Below the pieces are notes generated by a model, which saw only the letters and a list, made by a program, of their open reading frames with translations, had not been told where the DNA came from and searched no databases. From contig NZ_JAAGNX010000001.1 of NCBI RefSeq assembly GCF_010500615.1, positions 883,531-947,530 on the forward strand: a stretch of DNA of 64,000 nt. The letters are read 5' to 3'. The translations under genes were made by a program, and so were the position numbers. Origin of the DNA: Oceanipulchritudo coccoides (GTDB lineage Bacteria; Verrucomicrobiota; Verrucomicrobiia; Opitutales; Oceanipulchritudinaceae). Below, one piece after another: positions 3,249 to 10,131 of this stretch (its first letter is position 1; every line of letters begins with the position of its first letter).

Positions 3249-3353
3249 GCTTAATAGTATGGCTCATCCAGCCTGTTCAGGCAATCGAAACACAGGTTTC
3301 CGGTGGCATTTGTTGGACACCAATGCGTCCATCCTCTAAGCGGAATGCCTTCA

Positions 3354-4466
3354 ATGAATAGTGCCTGTTTAAAAATCTGCCTTCTTGAGCCCTATTATGG
3401 TGGCTCACATCGTCGTTGGGCGGATGAATACAAGCGGTTTTCCAGTCACAGGGTGGATATCCTGTCCCTTCCGCCCCGGCACTGGAAATGGCGGATGCAC
3501 GGGGCCGCGGTGAGTTTTGCCGGCCAGTTGATTGAGTCAGGAGAAAGGTATGACCTGATCCTTGCGAATGACCTGATGGATGTCGCTGTATTCATTTCCC
3601 TGACACGGGAAGCCGGGATTGAATCTCCCGTGGCAAGCTACTTTCATGAGAACCAGATCTCTTATCCGCTTTCCCCATCCGATACCGACAGGGAAGCGGG
3701 GCGTGACCTGCATTACGGATATATCAATTACACAACTGCCCTGGCTTCTTCGGCAGTCTTCTTTAATTCTGAATTCCATCGGCGCTCATTCCTTGAATCC
3801 CTCCCGGCATTCCTTGGCCGTTTTCCGGACCATCAGAACATGGAGACGATCGCGCGCATCGAACAAAAGTCACGCGCCCTTCCGCTCGGCATGGACCTGC
3901 ACGCACTGGACCAGCTCAAGCCAGGGCAGGACAAACCAGTGAACAGGGAACCCTTGCTCCTCTGGAATCATCGTTGGGAATTCGACAAGTGCCCTCAGGG
4001 ATTCATGGACATTCTCCTGGAGCTCCAGAACCGGCAAATTCCGTTCAAGATCGCCCTGCTCGGGCAGAAACTCGAAGAGGCAGACGAGGGGATTATGGAG
4101 AAGATCAAGCGCCTGGGTGACCGCGTCCTCCATCTGGGTGCTGTCGAGAGTGCTTCGGACTATGCTCATTGGCTCTGGGAGGCGGACATTCTCCCTGTTA
4201 CGGCCATCCAGGATTTTTTCGGGGGAAGCGTCGTCGAAGCAGTCTACTGTGGATGCCACCCCGTCCTGCCCAATCGGCTTGCCTATCCGGAGCATTTTGC
4301 GGACGCGCCTGTTTTCTTTGAGACGGAATCAGACGCCATTGAAATGCTTGTGGACTTGATCACTTCCGGCGACTGGCGGAAGCCGTGTCCACTCAGCGGC
4401 CAACTCAGGCAATATGACTGGAGCGAACTGGCTCCGGCATATGATCAGGCCATGAGGGAAATATAA
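3354..4466 (+). CDS. GTDC1/QTMAN-like glycosyltransferase (DUF3524 type)
   Basis: About 370 residues from the ATG at 3354; an ATG at 3345 is also possible. The N-terminus ICLLEPYYGGSHRRWADEY, the block YFHENQISYP, and the downstream segment with N-F-N-S-E-F-H (here VFFNSEFHRRSFL) resemble the DUF3524 domain of GTDC1, the animal tRNA-queuosine mannosyltransferase. The C-terminal half is a GT4-like Rossmann fold: LLWNHRWEFDKCP, a donor-site region near DILPVTAIQDFFGGSVVEAVYCGC, and PNRLAYPE. In bacteria such proteins are usually annotated only as DUF3524. Acting on tRNA queuosine is an inference from the family; another acceptor is possible. Its 3' end overlaps the convergent DUF456 gene by 22 bp. 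Confidence 0.75.
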   Translation: MNSACLKICLLEPYYGGSHRRWADEYKRFSSHRVDILSLPPRHWKWRMHGAAVSFAGQLIESGERYDLILANDLMDVAVFISLTREAGIESPVASYFHENQISYPLSPSDTDREAGRDLHYGYINYTTALASSAVFFNSEFHRRSFLESLPAFLGRFPDHQNMETIARIEQKSRALPLGMDLHALDQLKPGQDKPVNREPLLLWNHRWEFDKCPQGFMDILLELQNRQIPFKIALLGQKLEEADEGIMEKIKRLGDRVLHLGAVESASDYAHWLWEADILPVTAIQDFFGGSVVEAVYCGCHPVLPNRLAYPEHFADAPVFFETESDAIEMLVDLITSGDWRKPCPLSGQLRQYDWSELAPAYDQAMREI

Positions 4467-4921
4467 AAGGCGGCGACCATTCCGGTGGTGAGCCCGATTT
4501 TCAGGACAAACGCGATCAGGGCTCCAACGACTGTTCCCGCACCAGCGCGGGCCGCCTCGGGTCCGGACCGGTTGTCCAGCAGTTCAAACAGGACAGCCCC
4601 GACGATGGGCCCGAGTATCAAGCCCGGCAGGCTGAAAAAGAGCAGCCCGAAGATCCCGCCCAGGACCGCCCCAAGGGCCCCTTTCCATGAGGCACCGAAG
4701 CGGCGGGCTCCCCACCATGTGCACCATGCGTCAATCACAAGGGTGAGAAGCGTTATTCCCAGCGCAATGGCGACAAACTCCCACGAGACAGACGCTTCCC
4801 CGAGAAGGAGTTTGTGAACCGCAATACCGGAAAACGCGATGACGGTTCCCGGAAGGATGGGCAAAAGTGTCCCCAGAAGCCCAAGGGCAATCAGGCTGGT
4901 GGCAAGAATCAATGATAGCAT
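4445..4921 (-). CDS. DUF456 family membrane protein
   Basis: 158 residues, almost all hydrophobic, with about four to five membrane helices and Gly-rich hairpins such as GLLGTLLPILPG, GALGAVLGGIFGLLF and PGLILGPIVGAVLFEL. The order of a leading P-I-L-P-G hairpin, a central W-W-G-A-R-R-F-G and a second G-P-x-x-G-A hairpin is typical of DUF456. The biochemical role of the family is unknown. Its end overlaps the end of the convergent QTMAN-like gene by 22 bp, so the two messages would be antisense to each other there. Confidence 0.75.
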   Translation of the reverse strand: MLSLILATSLIALGLLGTLLPILPGTVIAFSGIAVHKLLLGEASVSWEFVAIALGITLLTLVIDAWCTWWGARRFGASWKGALGAVLGGIFGLLFFSLPGLILGPIVGAVLFELLDNRSGPEAARAGAGTVVGALIAFVLKIGLTTGMVAAFYISLMA

Positions 4922-5065
4922 GCAATTCTACTAGAAGGTTCCGTGCCACAATGAAGGTGAATACCTGTAAAGCATTGGTTAATAGAAAGTTAGGAATTTA
5001 AACAATTTCCCGTTTCAATCCACTCTTGGTGGAATCAACCAAACTTTAGGCTTCACTGCCACCAG

Positions 5066-6010
5066 CTATTTGCGGGGCCTGTGCAGGTTATATTCAAGGG
5101 ATCGGGCATCCGGATCGGTATCCGGGTTGAAAAAGTAGCTGAAAACAAGCTCCGGGCCCTCATCTCCTCGCGGATCAAACTCAATCTCGCCTTGGATCCA
5201 GCCATAGCAGGCTTCCAGTATCCGGCCGCTGGCATCCATTTTAGTCCGGGTTCGCAGGATGTAGTTACGATCCTTCTCCTGATAACTCTGGTAGGGATCG
5301 CCTTCCTGATGTGCCATGGAGTAGGAGAGCCGCGCCTCATAGCCATCCAGGGGAGCACTGTTGGGCGGGGCAAGGTTGCTGCCAAATTCCATTGAAAAGG
5401 GACGCGCCGCCTGGAAGGCCTGGATTCCATCGCCTTCGTTTGGGAAGGTGATTGTCATCGTTCCGGCAAACGTCTCTCCATCAACATAGACATCGTGGAA
5501 ATGAAAGAACATGTCTTCCGTCACGCCTTTTCCAAGCGGCCCGACCCAGTCACCGACCCGTAAATCGAATCCGACCGGTCTGTCCACCGCGGGGGCGTTT
5601 CCCCTGATCCGGCGATGCTGCATGAAGACCGGATCCAGGACCGGCTTCAATTCAATCGTATAGGCGTCAGCGATTTCCCGTGGAATCAGTTTTCTCTCCG
5701 GACCTTTATAAAGTCCACCGCGAAACAGCTCTCCGCCGGTCTTGTAGTATCCATCTTTGGATACATACACGGTAAGGCTTCGACCCTTTGAGAGTTGCAG
5801 GGAGACACGCCCGCTTTCATCGGTCTTTCCTTCAGCATTGCCCGGCCCGTAGCGCGATGCTTCAATCCGTGCGCCTTCAACGGGTTGGCCTGCCGGGTCT
5901 ACAACGGTAAACGTCACTGTTGTCAGCTCAAGGCTTGGCAAGTTGGAGGGGGATTGGGCAACGAGGACCATATGGGCTAGAATAGTTGTGAAGAGTATCG
6001 GGATTTTCAT
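5066..6010 (-). CDS. Secreted protein with carboxypeptidase-regulatory-like domain
   Basis: 314 residues. A signal peptide (about residues 1-19, MKIPILFTTILAHMVLVAQS) is followed by an Ig-like carboxypeptidase-regulatory fold at about residues 28-90, recognisable by VTFTVVDPAGQPVEGARIE, DESGRVSLQL and VYVSKDGYY. The rest, about 220 residues, is not recognised and is rich in aromatic and charged residues. The gene starts 4 bp after the stop of the large hydrolase-domain gene and probably ends the same transcript. The export signal and fold type are supported by sequence; the function is not known. Confidence 0.7.
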   Translation of the reverse strand: MKIPILFTTILAHMVLVAQSPSNLPSLELTTVTFTVVDPAGQPVEGARIEASRYGPGNAEGKTDESGRVSLQLSKGRSLTVYVSKDGYYKTGGELFRGGLYKGPERKLIPREIADAYTIELKPVLDPVFMQHRRIRGNAPAVDRPVGFDLRVGDWVGPLGKGVTEDMFFHFHDVYVDGETFAGTMTITFPNEGDGIQAFQAARPFSMEFGSNLAPPNSAPLDGYEARLSYSMAHQEGDPYQSYQEKDRNYILRTRTKMDASGRILEACYGWIQGEIEFDPRGDEGPELVFSYFFNPDTDPDARSLEYNLHRPRK

Positions 6011-6014
6011 GTAT

Positions 6015-9000
6015 TTACGGGTTTATGGATTTAACACAGATTCGGTAAAGTTCGGCGACAAAGGGCAGGGCAGGATTCAGGTAATCGCTGTGGAGCCATC
6101 GGTCCTGTTTCTCCGCCGGACTCCTAAATGGCCAGAAGAGGGCCTGGCGGATGACCTTATCCAGATCATAGTTCAGAAGCAGGGGGAGTTTTGGCAGGCT
6201 GTTTGAACCAGCTGGTGCGGAATGGGCCGGCAACCCCTCGGCCAGAATCTTCGCGTGATTCTTGATGGCATTGGGAGAGGCACCAACAAAGGAAGCGGGA
6301 GGCAGGTGGGCATTGGCTTCCTCCTTGTTCCCATAAAGCCATGAACCATCTGACCAATCCGGAAAATCGGAATCACCGCTGGAAAAGGGTCTGAAAAATG
6401 GCTCTGTGATCAGCTCTTCCGGATCGATCAAGGCTGCTTCTGCCGGGAGCATCCGGATCCATTCCCCCGCGGGAGGATGTGCCGCCCCTCCGGGGTTGAT
6501 CCAGTCCATGTGGGAAAAGTTGAAACCCCAGCCACCGTGAACGTCGCCGGTCAGGCTTGTCGCCAGGGTACTCGTTCCCTTGACCATTTCATTGTAAACC
6601 CAGATCAGTTCGGTCTTCCAGATATCCTCAAAGAGTGCGGGCAGATCGCCATTGCCTGAACGGAGGATGTCTTCCCCGGTCGAGAAAAAGTTATGGCAGA
6701 TTGTATTCCCTGAAACGCCGCCGAAGCGGGTTTTCCAGCTCAACAGTGACCGGTGATCATCCGGCTGGAAGAGGGCTGACCAGTAGGACGGCATGAGGAA
6801 TTCCGGATAATCCGATTGGTCTGACCCTTCGTCTTTCCAATCCGGATTGACCATTTTGCGGCGATCCTCCTGCTCTCCGAGGTAGGCCTCGGTCGGGACA
6901 GCGGCATTGAGCATGAAGTAGTTGAGGACATTCCATCCATGATCAACGATGGCGCTGGAGGCGACCATGTTCCCCAAGCTGTGTGCGAAGACCGAAGTGA
7001 GGGGTGCGGCAAGGGTTGCCAATGCCTCCGGCAGGTAGCCAGCCGTGATGAAGGCATTGATGACATTCTCATTGTAGTCAAAGGATGTGCCAATGAGCTC
7101 GAGCGTCCCTTCATCGCCAAACCAAGTGACGCCGACATAACGGGCACAGGAGCCTGTCTGGAAAAAGCGCTTGAAAATTTCCGCATGAGCTGCCGGTGCC
7201 TGATCTCCGCCCCAGTTGTAGCCATGGATATGCACAAGGGTGGGAAGGCTGTCCTTGAAGCTTCTCAGATATGCATCGGGCAGGTTGGGTGGCTCGCCCA
7301 GATCGGTGGGCCAGGGGCCGGGATCAGCCTGTGAGAATTTCGGATCGACATTCCGCAAGTTGGCAACCCGGAACATCTCCCCGACTGGAGAAATGGATAA
7401 TGGGAGCTCACATGAGAAAACCAGATCCCCTCTGTAGTGGTAATTCATGACAAGTGGTTCAGTCGATGGATGAGCCCCTTCCATCAGGAGAACACCACGG
7501 TTCTCATCCCGGATCCGGCGAATAAATGCAGCTGACAGTATCGTTGCCTGGGAGGAGATGGCCTGCACCTCGGCGCTCTCCAAAGGAGATGAGAAAAGGG
7601 GTCCAAAACCGGTCTCCAGGCGGGATTCATGAATCTTTCCCATCTCTTCCGGCAAAAGGCTGGTGTAGACAAAATTGAGCGCGGCATCGGCCTGGGAAAG
7701 ACTGACTTCCACATCATCGATGTTTTCGACGGCGGCCAGAAAGTCCTGAATGTCCAAGTGCACCGGAAAGAAGTCGACCACATCCCGTAATCCGTCGACG
7801 CCGGGGGACTCCCAGTCCGCATCGGCGGATTCCGGCATGTCATCTGCCCATGACCGGGCGAGGTCACCGGAATCATCATCGTCATTCACCCAGAAGTACC
7901 ACGGGAAATTCTTTGCCGCCTGTTTTTGATCCGTAATATCAATCGTTCCATTCCGGTCCCAATCGGGGACGAGCAGCTGGGGCATCAAGAGAAAGCCGCG
8001 ATCTTCCCATTGGAAGGTGGCCCAGTCAAAGAAGCGGCCTGTACCTGCAATCCTTCCGCTTGCACTGATACAGGTTGCCTTGAGTTGGGCCCATGACCCC
8101 GTATCCATGATCAGGTTATCAATGCTGCCCTCCCAGAAGTCAGGTGATGGCTGTCCGGTGGGCCTGCCTGAGAAGTCCGTTTCCGACATGCGTTTCCAGT
8201 AGTGGTTTTCAATGACAATTTCCTCCAGCCCGTCGAGTGGGTTGCTGATGCAGGGCACCACGGATTCAAGCTCGGTCAGGACAGGACCTATCGACCGCTG
8301 CCCGAATTGATCAAGAATCACCAGACCGAATTGCGGCCCGAGGGAACGGCCCAGAACCGTTCCCATGTCCGTGATCTGGAGCGGTTCAAAGTCGAGGACG
8401 GTCTCCTTGTTGAGTGCGAAATATTGATCCTGATGGTAGTAGGTGATGCCAGAGTCGTCCGAGAAAGCACTGTCCGAGTAGACCTCGCCGACTGTTTCGC
8501 CGTAATTGTTGATGTCATTCACCGTGTACAGGATGCCGCCCTGATGCAGGTCATAGTTCTCATCGATATAATATTCATATGACGAAAGCTCCTCGCATGT
8601 GCCGGATCGCAGGTTGAGCAGATCGGTCTCGATACGGAGCGTGTAGGGCGCAAAGGCAAAGAAACCGGATTCAGCTTCCTGGTGTAAAACCAGTTGGTCC
8701 TGATCATTAAAGGCATAAGGCCACCAGTAATAGGGCGGGTAGGGCAGGCAGTCTTCGTTTTCGACAAGACAATGAGATGCGTCTCCCTCCAGCCAGAAGC
8801 GCATTTCAAATTCATTCTCAGGCGTCATGCTGGTGGTGACGACGGATTTTTCCTCATTGAGGCGGGCCCAGTCTGAATACCTGAAGTTGTCATTCATGAT
8901 GGATCGCTCCCCGCCACCCCATTGGATGAGCTTTTTGTCATCTGTGGACATCAGGATCATCATGGAATCGTTGATGGACACGGGCGTGATACCGGCTCCC

Positions 9001-9155
9001 AGGTCGACAATCCGGTAAGCTGGCAGTTCTACTGCCGCGGAGTAGGCGTCGCCGTAGGTAAATTCATACGCAGCGCGAATGGGTCCATAAGGTAGTTCCG
9101 CAACTGATGCGCAATGGAGGCAGAAAGTGATGATCAAAACGGTGTATCGGGGCAT
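6015..9155 (-). CDS. Large secreted protein with alpha/beta-hydrolase (lipase-like) domain
   Basis: About 1046 residues from the ATG at 9155, which gives a clean signal peptide (PRYTVLIITFCLHCASVA); an earlier start at 9254 would overlap the upstream gene by 50 bp. The N-terminal half has weak HAF-like repeats (for example VNDINNYGETVGEVYSD and ISASGRIAGTGRF). Then comes an Asp-rich calcium-type stretch (DWDRNGTIDITD, NDDDDSGD, VDGLRDVVDFFPV). The C-terminal half has an alpha/beta-hydrolase core: LVHIHGYNWGG with the oxyanion HG, and FAHSLGNMVASSA with the likely nucleophilic Ser in a modified elbow (A-H-S-L-G). It is probably an exported esterase or lipase-like enzyme. It sits between two other secreted proteins on the same strand. 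Confidence 0.75.
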   Translation of the reverse strand: MPRYTVLIITFCLHCASVAELPYGPIRAAYEFTYGDAYSAAVELPAYRIVDLGAGITPVSINDSMMILMSTDDKKLIQWGGGERSIMNDNFRYSDWARLNEEKSVVTTSMTPENEFEMRFWLEGDASHCLVENEDCLPYPPYYWWPYAFNDQDQLVLHQEAESGFFAFAPYTLRIETDLLNLRSGTCEELSSYEYYIDENYDLHQGGILYTVNDINNYGETVGEVYSDSAFSDDSGITYYHQDQYFALNKETVLDFEPLQITDMGTVLGRSLGPQFGLVILDQFGQRSIGPVLTELESVVPCISNPLDGLEEIVIENHYWKRMSETDFSGRPTGQPSPDFWEGSIDNLIMDTGSWAQLKATCISASGRIAGTGRFFDWATFQWEDRGFLLMPQLLVPDWDRNGTIDITDQKQAAKNFPWYFWVNDDDDSGDLARSWADDMPESADADWESPGVDGLRDVVDFFPVHLDIQDFLAAVENIDDVEVSLSQADAALNFVYTSLLPEEMGKIHESRLETGFGPLFSSPLESAEVQAISSQATILSAAFIRRIRDENRGVLLMEGAHPSTEPLVMNYHYRGDLVFSCELPLSISPVGEMFRVANLRNVDPKFSQADPGPWPTDLGEPPNLPDAYLRSFKDSLPTLVHIHGYNWGGDQAPAAHAEIFKRFFQTGSCARYVGVTWFGDEGTLELIGTSFDYNENVINAFITAGYLPEALATLAAPLTSVFAHSLGNMVASSAIVDHGWNVLNYFMLNAAVPTEAYLGEQEDRRKMVNPDWKDEGSDQSDYPEFLMPSYWSALFQPDDHRSLLSWKTRFGGVSGNTICHNFFSTGEDILRSGNGDLPALFEDIWKTELIWVYNEMVKGTSTLATSLTGDVHGGWGFNFSHMDWINPGGAAHPPAGEWIRMLPAEAALIDPEELITEPFFRPFSSGDSDFPDWSDGSWLYGNKEEANAHLPPASFVGASPNAIKNHAKILAEGLPAHSAPAGSNSLPKLPLLLNYDLDKVIRQALFWPFRSPAEKQDRWLHSDYLNPALPFVAELYRICVKSINP

Positions 9156-9204
9156 GGGGCTTTGAGGAGAAGACAGTTTGAAATTTCTGGATACGGTGAG
9201 GGCG

Positions 9205-10131
9205 TCAGGGAGCGGTGCTGGAAAAGGCGTAGAGGCCTGTTTGCGGATCAGCATCGGGTATTTCCTGATCAGTCAGCTCAAGAACAGGGATCCAATCCCC
9301 GGAGCTTGCCTTTTCCTCCACGCGGAATGAGAGGGCATCGGCGGCGTCGCCCTTCCAGGTGAAGAGGGTTTGATTAGCCAGCACGGTCCGCATGATTCCA
9401 CGCGGGGGCCCATTCCCTTCGCCCGGAATGACATGAATCCGGATTTCCGCGGAAGCCTTACCTGCTTCAATAATCAGGACTTCATCCTGATCGGGGAGCG
9501 TGCTGGCCGCGTAGTGAATGGCATGCAGACTTGGATGGAGTCGTCCCAGATCATCCGTGTAGGCAAGCATCTCGGGAACAGCTGAACTCACAGGATCTCC
9601 TTTCTGTAGAAGCCCGTCGCTTCCGCTCTGCAGACGAAGACAGACCGGCGCGCCTACGATCGGCCGCCCGGTTTTGTCCAGCAGGGAAAGGGAGAGGGAC
9701 TGGGTGGAGAGCTGATTTGCTCGAACAAGCCATTCGCTTCCGCAGGAGAGGTGGATGCTTGGTTGGTCGCCATTGTAGTAATCGAGTGGATCGGTCTGGT
9801 TCAGCCATTCAATGTAAGTACTCAATCCATCCCCGTCCGGGTCACTGGAAGCATTGATATCGAGCCGGCCGAAAGTCTGCTGCTCCCAGACATCGGGTAG
9901 CCCGTTCTCATTGGTGTCACCATTTGTATTGGACCGGATCCGGGTGAAAACGGGAGACGGGTTTGCCTCAAGCGCAAGGGACTCAATGGAGTCCCGGCCG
10001 GTAAAGACAAAGGGCAAGGTCATCCAATCGACCAGGTTTCCGGATGTCTGCACGGTGTAAGTCGTTCCCTGTTCCGCATACCATGAGAGAGCGAGTAGAA
10101 ATCCATTAAGGGCGGTCAGGGCGGCATTCAT
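9205..10131 (-). CDS. Secreted protein with calcium-type Asp-rich motif
   Basis: About 308 residues from the ATG at 10131, which gives a hydrophobic leader (NAALTALNGFLLALSWYAE); an ATG at 10167 adds 12 residues. The first part contains YTVQTSGNLVDWMTLPF and FTRIR, the 'S-x-x-L-x-D-W ... F-x-R' module common as a C-terminal domain in Opitutae but placed here at the N-terminus. It is followed by a thrombospondin-type-3-like stretch (DTNENGLPDVWEQ, DPDGDGLSTYIEWLNQTDP). The rest looks like Ig-like beta-strands. No catalytic motif is seen. It precedes the hydrolase-domain gene by about 50 bp on the same strand, so the three secreted genes 10131-5066 are probably co-transcribed. Function unknown. 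Confidence 0.7.
   Translation of the reverse strand: MNAALTALNGFLLALSWYAEQGTTYTVQTSGNLVDWMTLPFVFTGRDSIESLALEANPSPVFTRIRSNTNGDTNENGLPDVWEQQTFGRLDINASSDPDGDGLSTYIEWLNQTDPLDYYNGDQPSIHLSCGSEWLVRANQLSTQSLSLSLLDKTGRPIVGAPVCLRLQSGSDGLLQKGDPVSSAVPEMLAYTDDLGRLHPSLHAIHYAASTLPDQDEVLIIEAGKASAEIRIHVIPGEGNGPPRGIMRTVLANQTLFTWKGDAADALSFRVEEKASSGDWIPVLELTDQEIPDADPQTGLYAFSSTAP

Follow-up and report, generated by a model that had tools for sequence, protein, structure and literature searches.

A QTMAN-family glycosyltransferase gene in Oceanipulchritudo coccoides and its possible link to glycosylated queuosine in bacterial tRNA

Zhao et al. reportedly described in 2023 (Cell 186:5517) the animal queuosine-tRNA mannosyltransferase QTMAN, which we take to be the protein otherwise named GTDC1. 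According to two papers, the animal enzyme attaches α-mannose to the queuosine (Q) of tRNA-Asp (PMC12518689, PMC12313893), and in the first of them its purpose is still called unclear. The second gives mass transitions of m/z 572 to 295 and 163 for hexosyl-Q; Q itself has m/z 410. In the 64,000-nucleotide stretch of the Oceanipulchritudo coccoides genome that was analysed here (the window), a first-pass annotation proposed that the gene at 3354–4466 encodes a bacterial relative of this enzyme. Does this assignment hold, and could such a protein act on Q in a bacterium?

The gene is an uninterrupted ATG-to-stop reading frame of 370 codons for amino acids (Table 1). An in-frame GTG at 3303 is an alternative upstream start; the ATG agrees with the N-terminal beginnings of the aligned relatives. 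The segment ICLLEPYYGGSHRRW corresponds to residues 8–22. The idea that the N-terminal half resembles DUF3524 was borne out by a profile search, in which PF12038 (QTMAN_N, formerly DUF3524) matched over the entire model (positions 1–168 of 168) with a score of 193.1 bits (cut-off 25, E = 4.1e-57), far above chance. This profile has a single match in the whole genome, at this very gene, and none in 14 control genomes. The C-terminal half scores 22.2 bits with PF00534 and 21.2 bits with PF13692, below the respective cut-offs of 26.4 and 27. Since Pfam already names PF12038 QTMAN_N (tRNA-queuosine alpha-mannosyltransferase, N-terminal), the proposed family link was present in a curated library beforehand. 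By its sequence, the assignment of this protein to the QTMAN family is correct, and the family itself is already known. Compared via the Pfam model only, the protein shares with animal QTMAN the full-length N-terminal family and a GT4-type C-terminal half; it differs in that its host has Q genes of its own.

Table 1. Features of the QTMAN-family gene (positions in the window)
Feature	Position	Strand	Basis
Gene, 370-aa QTMAN-family (PF12038) GT4-type glycosyltransferase	3354..4466	+	Open frame, PF12038, AlphaFold model
QTMAN_N N-terminal domain, residues 7–180	3372..3893	+	Pfam; predicted acceptor side, role inferred
GGSH motif, residues 16–19	3399..3410	+	Conservation among relatives
HENQ motif, residues 98–101	3645..3656	+	Conservation among relatives
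GT4-like C-terminal domain, residues 198–336	3945..4361	+	Sub-cut-off PF00534, profile matches, GT-B fold; predicted nucleotide-sugar side
WNHRWEFDK motif, residues 204–212	3963..3989	+	Conservation among relatives; predicted diphosphate-binding Arg/Lys
D287-x7-E295 at GT4 E-x7-E place	4212..4238	+	Comparison with relatives

An AlphaFold model built from a 59-row alignment (mean pLDDT 93.4, pTM 0.91) confidently predicts a GT-B fold of two Rossmann-like domains. The best structural match is a sucrose-phosphate synthase (Z 30.7 over 333 residues). The best 50 chains have Z of 25–31, and MshA, BshA, GlgM and a methylmannose polysaccharide mannosyltransferase are also near their top; we take these top matches to be GT-B enzymes. 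The mannosyltransferase 7qsg matches with Z 29.9. Two chains solved with GDP-mannose, PimB' (3oka, Z 26.3 over 327 residues) and PimA (2gej, Z 25.6 over 307 residues), resemble the predicted model in overall fold, whereas their identity to the 370-aa protein is 14% and 18%, and the PimA match in the profile search is confined to the C-terminal part. The acceptors of PimA and PimB' are lipids. Profile searches of solved structures gave no whole-length relative, only C-terminal matches to glycosyltransferases with E up to 1. Since UDP-sugar users occur beside GDP-mannose users among the structural matches, the donor sugar is not readable from the fold.

Conservation was counted over 105 relatives (own copy of the gene left out). 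R207, W208, D211, K212 and G290 are invariant; S18 and H19 are kept in 104 relatives (one gap), and H98 and E99 each occur in 104. Judging by GT4 enzymes, R207 and K212 presumably bind the diphosphate and HENQ presumably has a catalytic role. D287-x7-E295 lies where GT4 enzymes have the E-x7-E motif, with a conservative change at the first place in this protein. The site is variable within the family: D occurs at position 287 in 71/105 relatives and E in 34/105, and at position 295 the counts are 89 for E, 15 for Q and one for G. The preceding position 286 is Q in 79/105 and H in 26/105. The protein is acidic (pI 5.3), a property that we counted against Q-containing tRNA as the acceptor.

PF12038 is found in 6 of 155 genomes of Verrucomicrobiota, the host included, and in 27 of 251 Chloroflexota genomes. 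The first-pass annotation had described such genes as rarely assigned in bacteria. If this meant that they are few, it does not stand, since scanning GTDB contigs with a pattern gave at least 581 confirmed bacterial relatives, the best 80 of which were kept for comparison; yet no NCBIfam model matches the 370-aa protein at E 0.001. Among viral contigs, 49 pattern matches yielded no confirmed relative. In a tree of 106 bacterial proteins, the host protein groups with three from Verrucomicrobiota (Opitutaceae, Pelagicoccus, Opitutales; 49–53% identity) with support of 100/94, and the neighbours of this group are two rows titled Deltaproteobacteria. Five other proteins of the same phylum (L002–L006) are far from the host protein. 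This patchy distribution suggests loss or transfer. A contig titled Chloroflexi (G165, L018) carries a QTMAN gene that falls inside the Desulfuromonadales branch, which may reflect a binning error or transfer.

We turn to the acceptor. The first-pass annotation had noted the lack of a queuosine-synthesis gene in the window, and TGT, QueA and QueG indeed all lie outside C1:883531–947530. The genome check that it had proposed retrieved all three elsewhere in the host genome (G000) above their equivalog cut-offs: TGT at C1:1173400 (466.7 bits against 306.75), QueA at C2:987541 (344.8 against 324) and QueG at C2:287837 (366.8 against 200). With these genes present, queuosine should be made in this bacterium. 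The valine loop is intact in the host TGT (DECPP, GGVSVGE), which one would expect of a bacterium with Q synthesis of its own. The genome also contains a GluQRS-like gene (G000:C2:532201–532983; L158:630–1607, minus strand) that stays below the cut-off in all five GluQRS models listed (best 237.8 bits against 250). GluQRS (YadB) offers a bacterial precedent for further modification of Q34; as a relative of glutamyl-tRNA synthetase, it joins glutamate instead of a sugar and, according to PMC3542578, makes glutamyl-queuosine on tRNA-Asp. The GluQRS-like gene may mean that tRNA-Asp is already claimed in the host, so that this tRNA is a doubtful substrate of the 370-aa protein.

Genomes with a family gene (carriers) were surveyed for the same functions. 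This set of 56 carriers comprises six from the host phylum and 50 of the best 80 contig loci. QueA is present in 54 of them; the other two (G157 and G201, both titled MAG) have TGT and QueG. In the host phylum this co-occurrence is uninformative, because 147 of its 155 genomes contain QueA anyway. TGT was found in 52 carriers but not in G119, G165, G189 and G195, and these four genomes count against Q as the acceptor. One of them, G119 (L006), belongs to the host's own family, is rated 100% complete and has QueA and QueG. The PF12038 protein of G119 is very divergent (29% identity) and forms the longest branch of the tree. QueG exceeds its cut-off in 31/56 carriers and QueH in 19/56, never both, so that 50 carriers have one or the other. 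Among the remaining six, G117, G129 and G185 contain QueG-like matches of 121–183 bits, G195 has a 66-bit fragment, and no QueG match was found in G168 or G174. GluQRS (TIGR03838) exceeds its cut-off in seven of the 56 carriers, and nine more, the host included, contain short sub-cut-off GluQRS-like matches (frames of 303–365 aa). Mutual exclusivity with GluQRS, expected if both enzymes used Q on tRNA-Asp, was therefore rejected, since GluQRS or a GluQRS-like gene coexists with the family gene in 16/56 carriers.

Chloroflexota were chosen for a closer comparison because QueA varies there (163/251 genomes). QueA occurs in only 9 of the 27 Chloroflexota carriers versus 154 of 224 non-carriers (Fisher p = 5e-4), a negative association that by itself argues against a Q substrate. 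TGT, which is present in all 27 carriers, provides a way out. Among the 88 Chloroflexota without QueA, TGT was found in 18/18 carriers versus 26/70 non-carriers (Fisher p = 4e-7, uncorrected for kinship). This value overstates the evidence, since a single branch of the QTMAN tree unites 16 of these carriers and G292 and G332 stand apart, which leaves about three independent lineages; counted as lineages, 3/3 with TGT against a base of 44/88 gives no better than 0.125.

The TGT sequences fit a salvage route. PMC11570991 gives as the mark of queuine-inserting TGTs the replacement of GGLAVG by GG[LS][AS]G, with the explanation that the valine would clash with the queuine diol. In all 18 QueA-less carriers, the TGT loop aligns one residue shorter, as GG-SLG, without the valine of GGL(A/S)VG. 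This is close to the published queuine-TGT motif but not identical. Sixteen of these TGTs also read FDELPP and GIVHGG, while those of G292 and G332 keep FDECTSPL and GIVQGG. The QueA-positive carriers examined, the host included, kept the valine in 10/10 cases. The valine-less TGTs fit the uptake of ready-made queuine, which would make Q available to the glycosyltransferase in cells that do not make it. The QTMAN family thus seems, from these sequence comparisons, to follow queuosine, whether made or salvaged. Carriers are not alone in having lost the valine: 16 of the 26 TGTs from QueA-less non-carriers were examined, and 12 of the 16 lack it (8 GGLAG, 2 GG-SLG and 2 IGD-CLG, against 4 with valine). 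A QueA-positive non-carrier picked for its long insert (G413) has a TGT with GG-SLG as well.

The neighbours on the two sides of the gene in the window encode two ABC transporter proteins, a MacB/FtsX permease, a D/K/N-group class II tRNA synthetase, a DUF456 protein and a small PGPGW membrane protein; two more frames have little or no known kin. None of these neighbours suggests a role. A 1079-aa open frame at 6015–9254 of the window (minus strand) has no Pfam match at E 0.001. Searching the DNA around 106 family loci, the host's included, by tblastn (six loci covered by only 3.5 kb) revealed no TGT, QueA or QueG, and the corresponding search for GluQRS-like genes gave only one GluRS-like fragment, in L071. 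When neighbours were clustered over the 106 loci, we considered the 30 largest clusters; the flanking frames were chosen by length, so that GC-rich loci contributed some spurious antisense frames, and the family gene itself was clustered in 95/106. In 80 frames that flank 41 of the loci, the Pfam families seen most often are alpha/beta hydrolases (7), followed by SpoIIE (4) and oligopeptide-type permeases (4). The 25 commonest of 116 flanking Pfam families include one DegT/DnrJ sugar aminotransferase and no glycosyltransferase family. In L019 (Citrifermentans, Geobacteraceae; 3533–9146), genes for MreC, MreD, a penicillin-binding transpeptidase and RodA come directly before the QTMAN gene on the same strand, and about 5 kb upstream of it there is an NTP_transferase gene. 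The same nucleotidyltransferase cluster recurs in six loci: L019, L030, L049 and L087 (Geobacteraceae), and L114 and L116 (Chloroflexota). In Geobacteraceae, these neighbours could tie the gene to the cell wall or to sugars, or could reflect the chance placement of a lone gene.

We consider it probable (about 0.6) that the 370-aa protein acts on queuosine, with Q-tRNA taken as the acceptor because of family membership and co-occurrence with queuosine genes. Such an enzyme would use a nucleotide sugar as hexose donor, perhaps GDP-mannose with mannose as the hexose, and would attach the hexose, with retention, to a cyclopentenediol hydroxyl of the queuosine that one or more GUN tRNAs already carry at position 34. 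Mannose as the sugar, and the choice of tRNA, we infer with less support. A variant of Q glycosylation, in which the bacterial enzyme uses another sugar or another tRNA than its animal counterpart (for example tRNA-Tyr, -His or -Asn, with tRNA-Asp left to the GluQRS-like enzyme), is a possibility that we hold tentatively, at clearly less than even odds. It would account for the GluQRS-like gene of the host and for the carriers with GluQRS or a GluQRS-like gene, and it is consistent with the differences at the sugar-side positions 286, 287 and 295 and with the mixture of UDP-sugar and GDP-mannose users among the structural matches. The transfer of α-mannose to Q of tRNA-Asp by animal QTMAN stands against it.

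It is rather unlikely that the protein shares QTMAN_N with the animal enzyme by descent yet serves a different pathway with another acceptor, be it for the cell wall or for a surface glycan, a lipid or a small molecule. GT4-type enzymes are very numerous, and those found as structural matches have sugars, lipids or thiol precursors as substrates. The placement of the L019 gene behind MreC, MreD, the penicillin-binding protein and RodA, the nucleotidyltransferase cluster in six loci, the absence of TGT, QueA and QueG near the 106 loci and the negative association with QueA in Chloroflexota would all agree with such a role. It is opposed by the match along the entire model of an N-terminal family that is narrow and named for Q-tRNA, by the TGT in every Chloroflexota carrier even without QueA, and by the lack of glycosyltransferases among the commonest flanking families (from 80 frames, some of them spurious). 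Improbable by comparison is an enzyme that accepts epoxyqueuosine, preQ1 or some other precursor or deazaguanine in tRNA in place of mature Q. The six carriers without QueG or QueH over the cut-off would suit such an acceptor, but three of them have QueG-like matches and one has a fragment, leaving two with none, and the QueA-less carriers could not make epoxyqueuosine themselves.

Extending the queuosine reading beyond the host, we see slightly less than an even chance that many bacterial lineages (Opitutales, Saprospiraceae, Balneolaceae, Desulfuromonadales, KSB1, Marinimicrobia and Chloroflexota) put a hexose on Q34, and that some Chloroflexota do so on queuine from their neighbours, inserted by a TGT with a changed pocket, so that the sugar step has outlasted Q synthesis. 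We found no report of glycosylated Q in bacteria among the listed titles and opening lines of abstracts of open-licence papers. If this proposal is true, glycosyl-queuosine is no speciality of animals, bacteria widely carry hyper-modified queuosine, and it becomes possible to trace where the animal enzyme came from. Bacteria would then have two decorations of Q34, glutamate and a sugar, and the choice of tRNA and hydroxyl would be testable; named strains (Geomonas, Phaeodactylibacter) would be open to the study of bacterial hyper-modified queuosine. The value of the gene lies in making bacterial glycosyl-queuosine directly testable.

Two further observations concern the TGTs of Chloroflexota. 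Sixteen QueA-less carriers (L088–L093, L134–L138, L140, L141, L143, L146 and L147) have TGTs with an insert after FQVFSL, FDELPP for FDEC, GIVHGG for GIVQGG and the GG-SLG loop. The same type, including FDELPP and GIVHGG, occurs in one non-carrier, G216 (L139). These 16 proteins constitute a distinct TGT type that may use queuine. Five Chloroflexota carriers (L153–L157) encode a second, distant TGT-like protein (313–321 bits, frames of 372–389 aa) that reads CLDDCTHVD and FGFGGWPLD.
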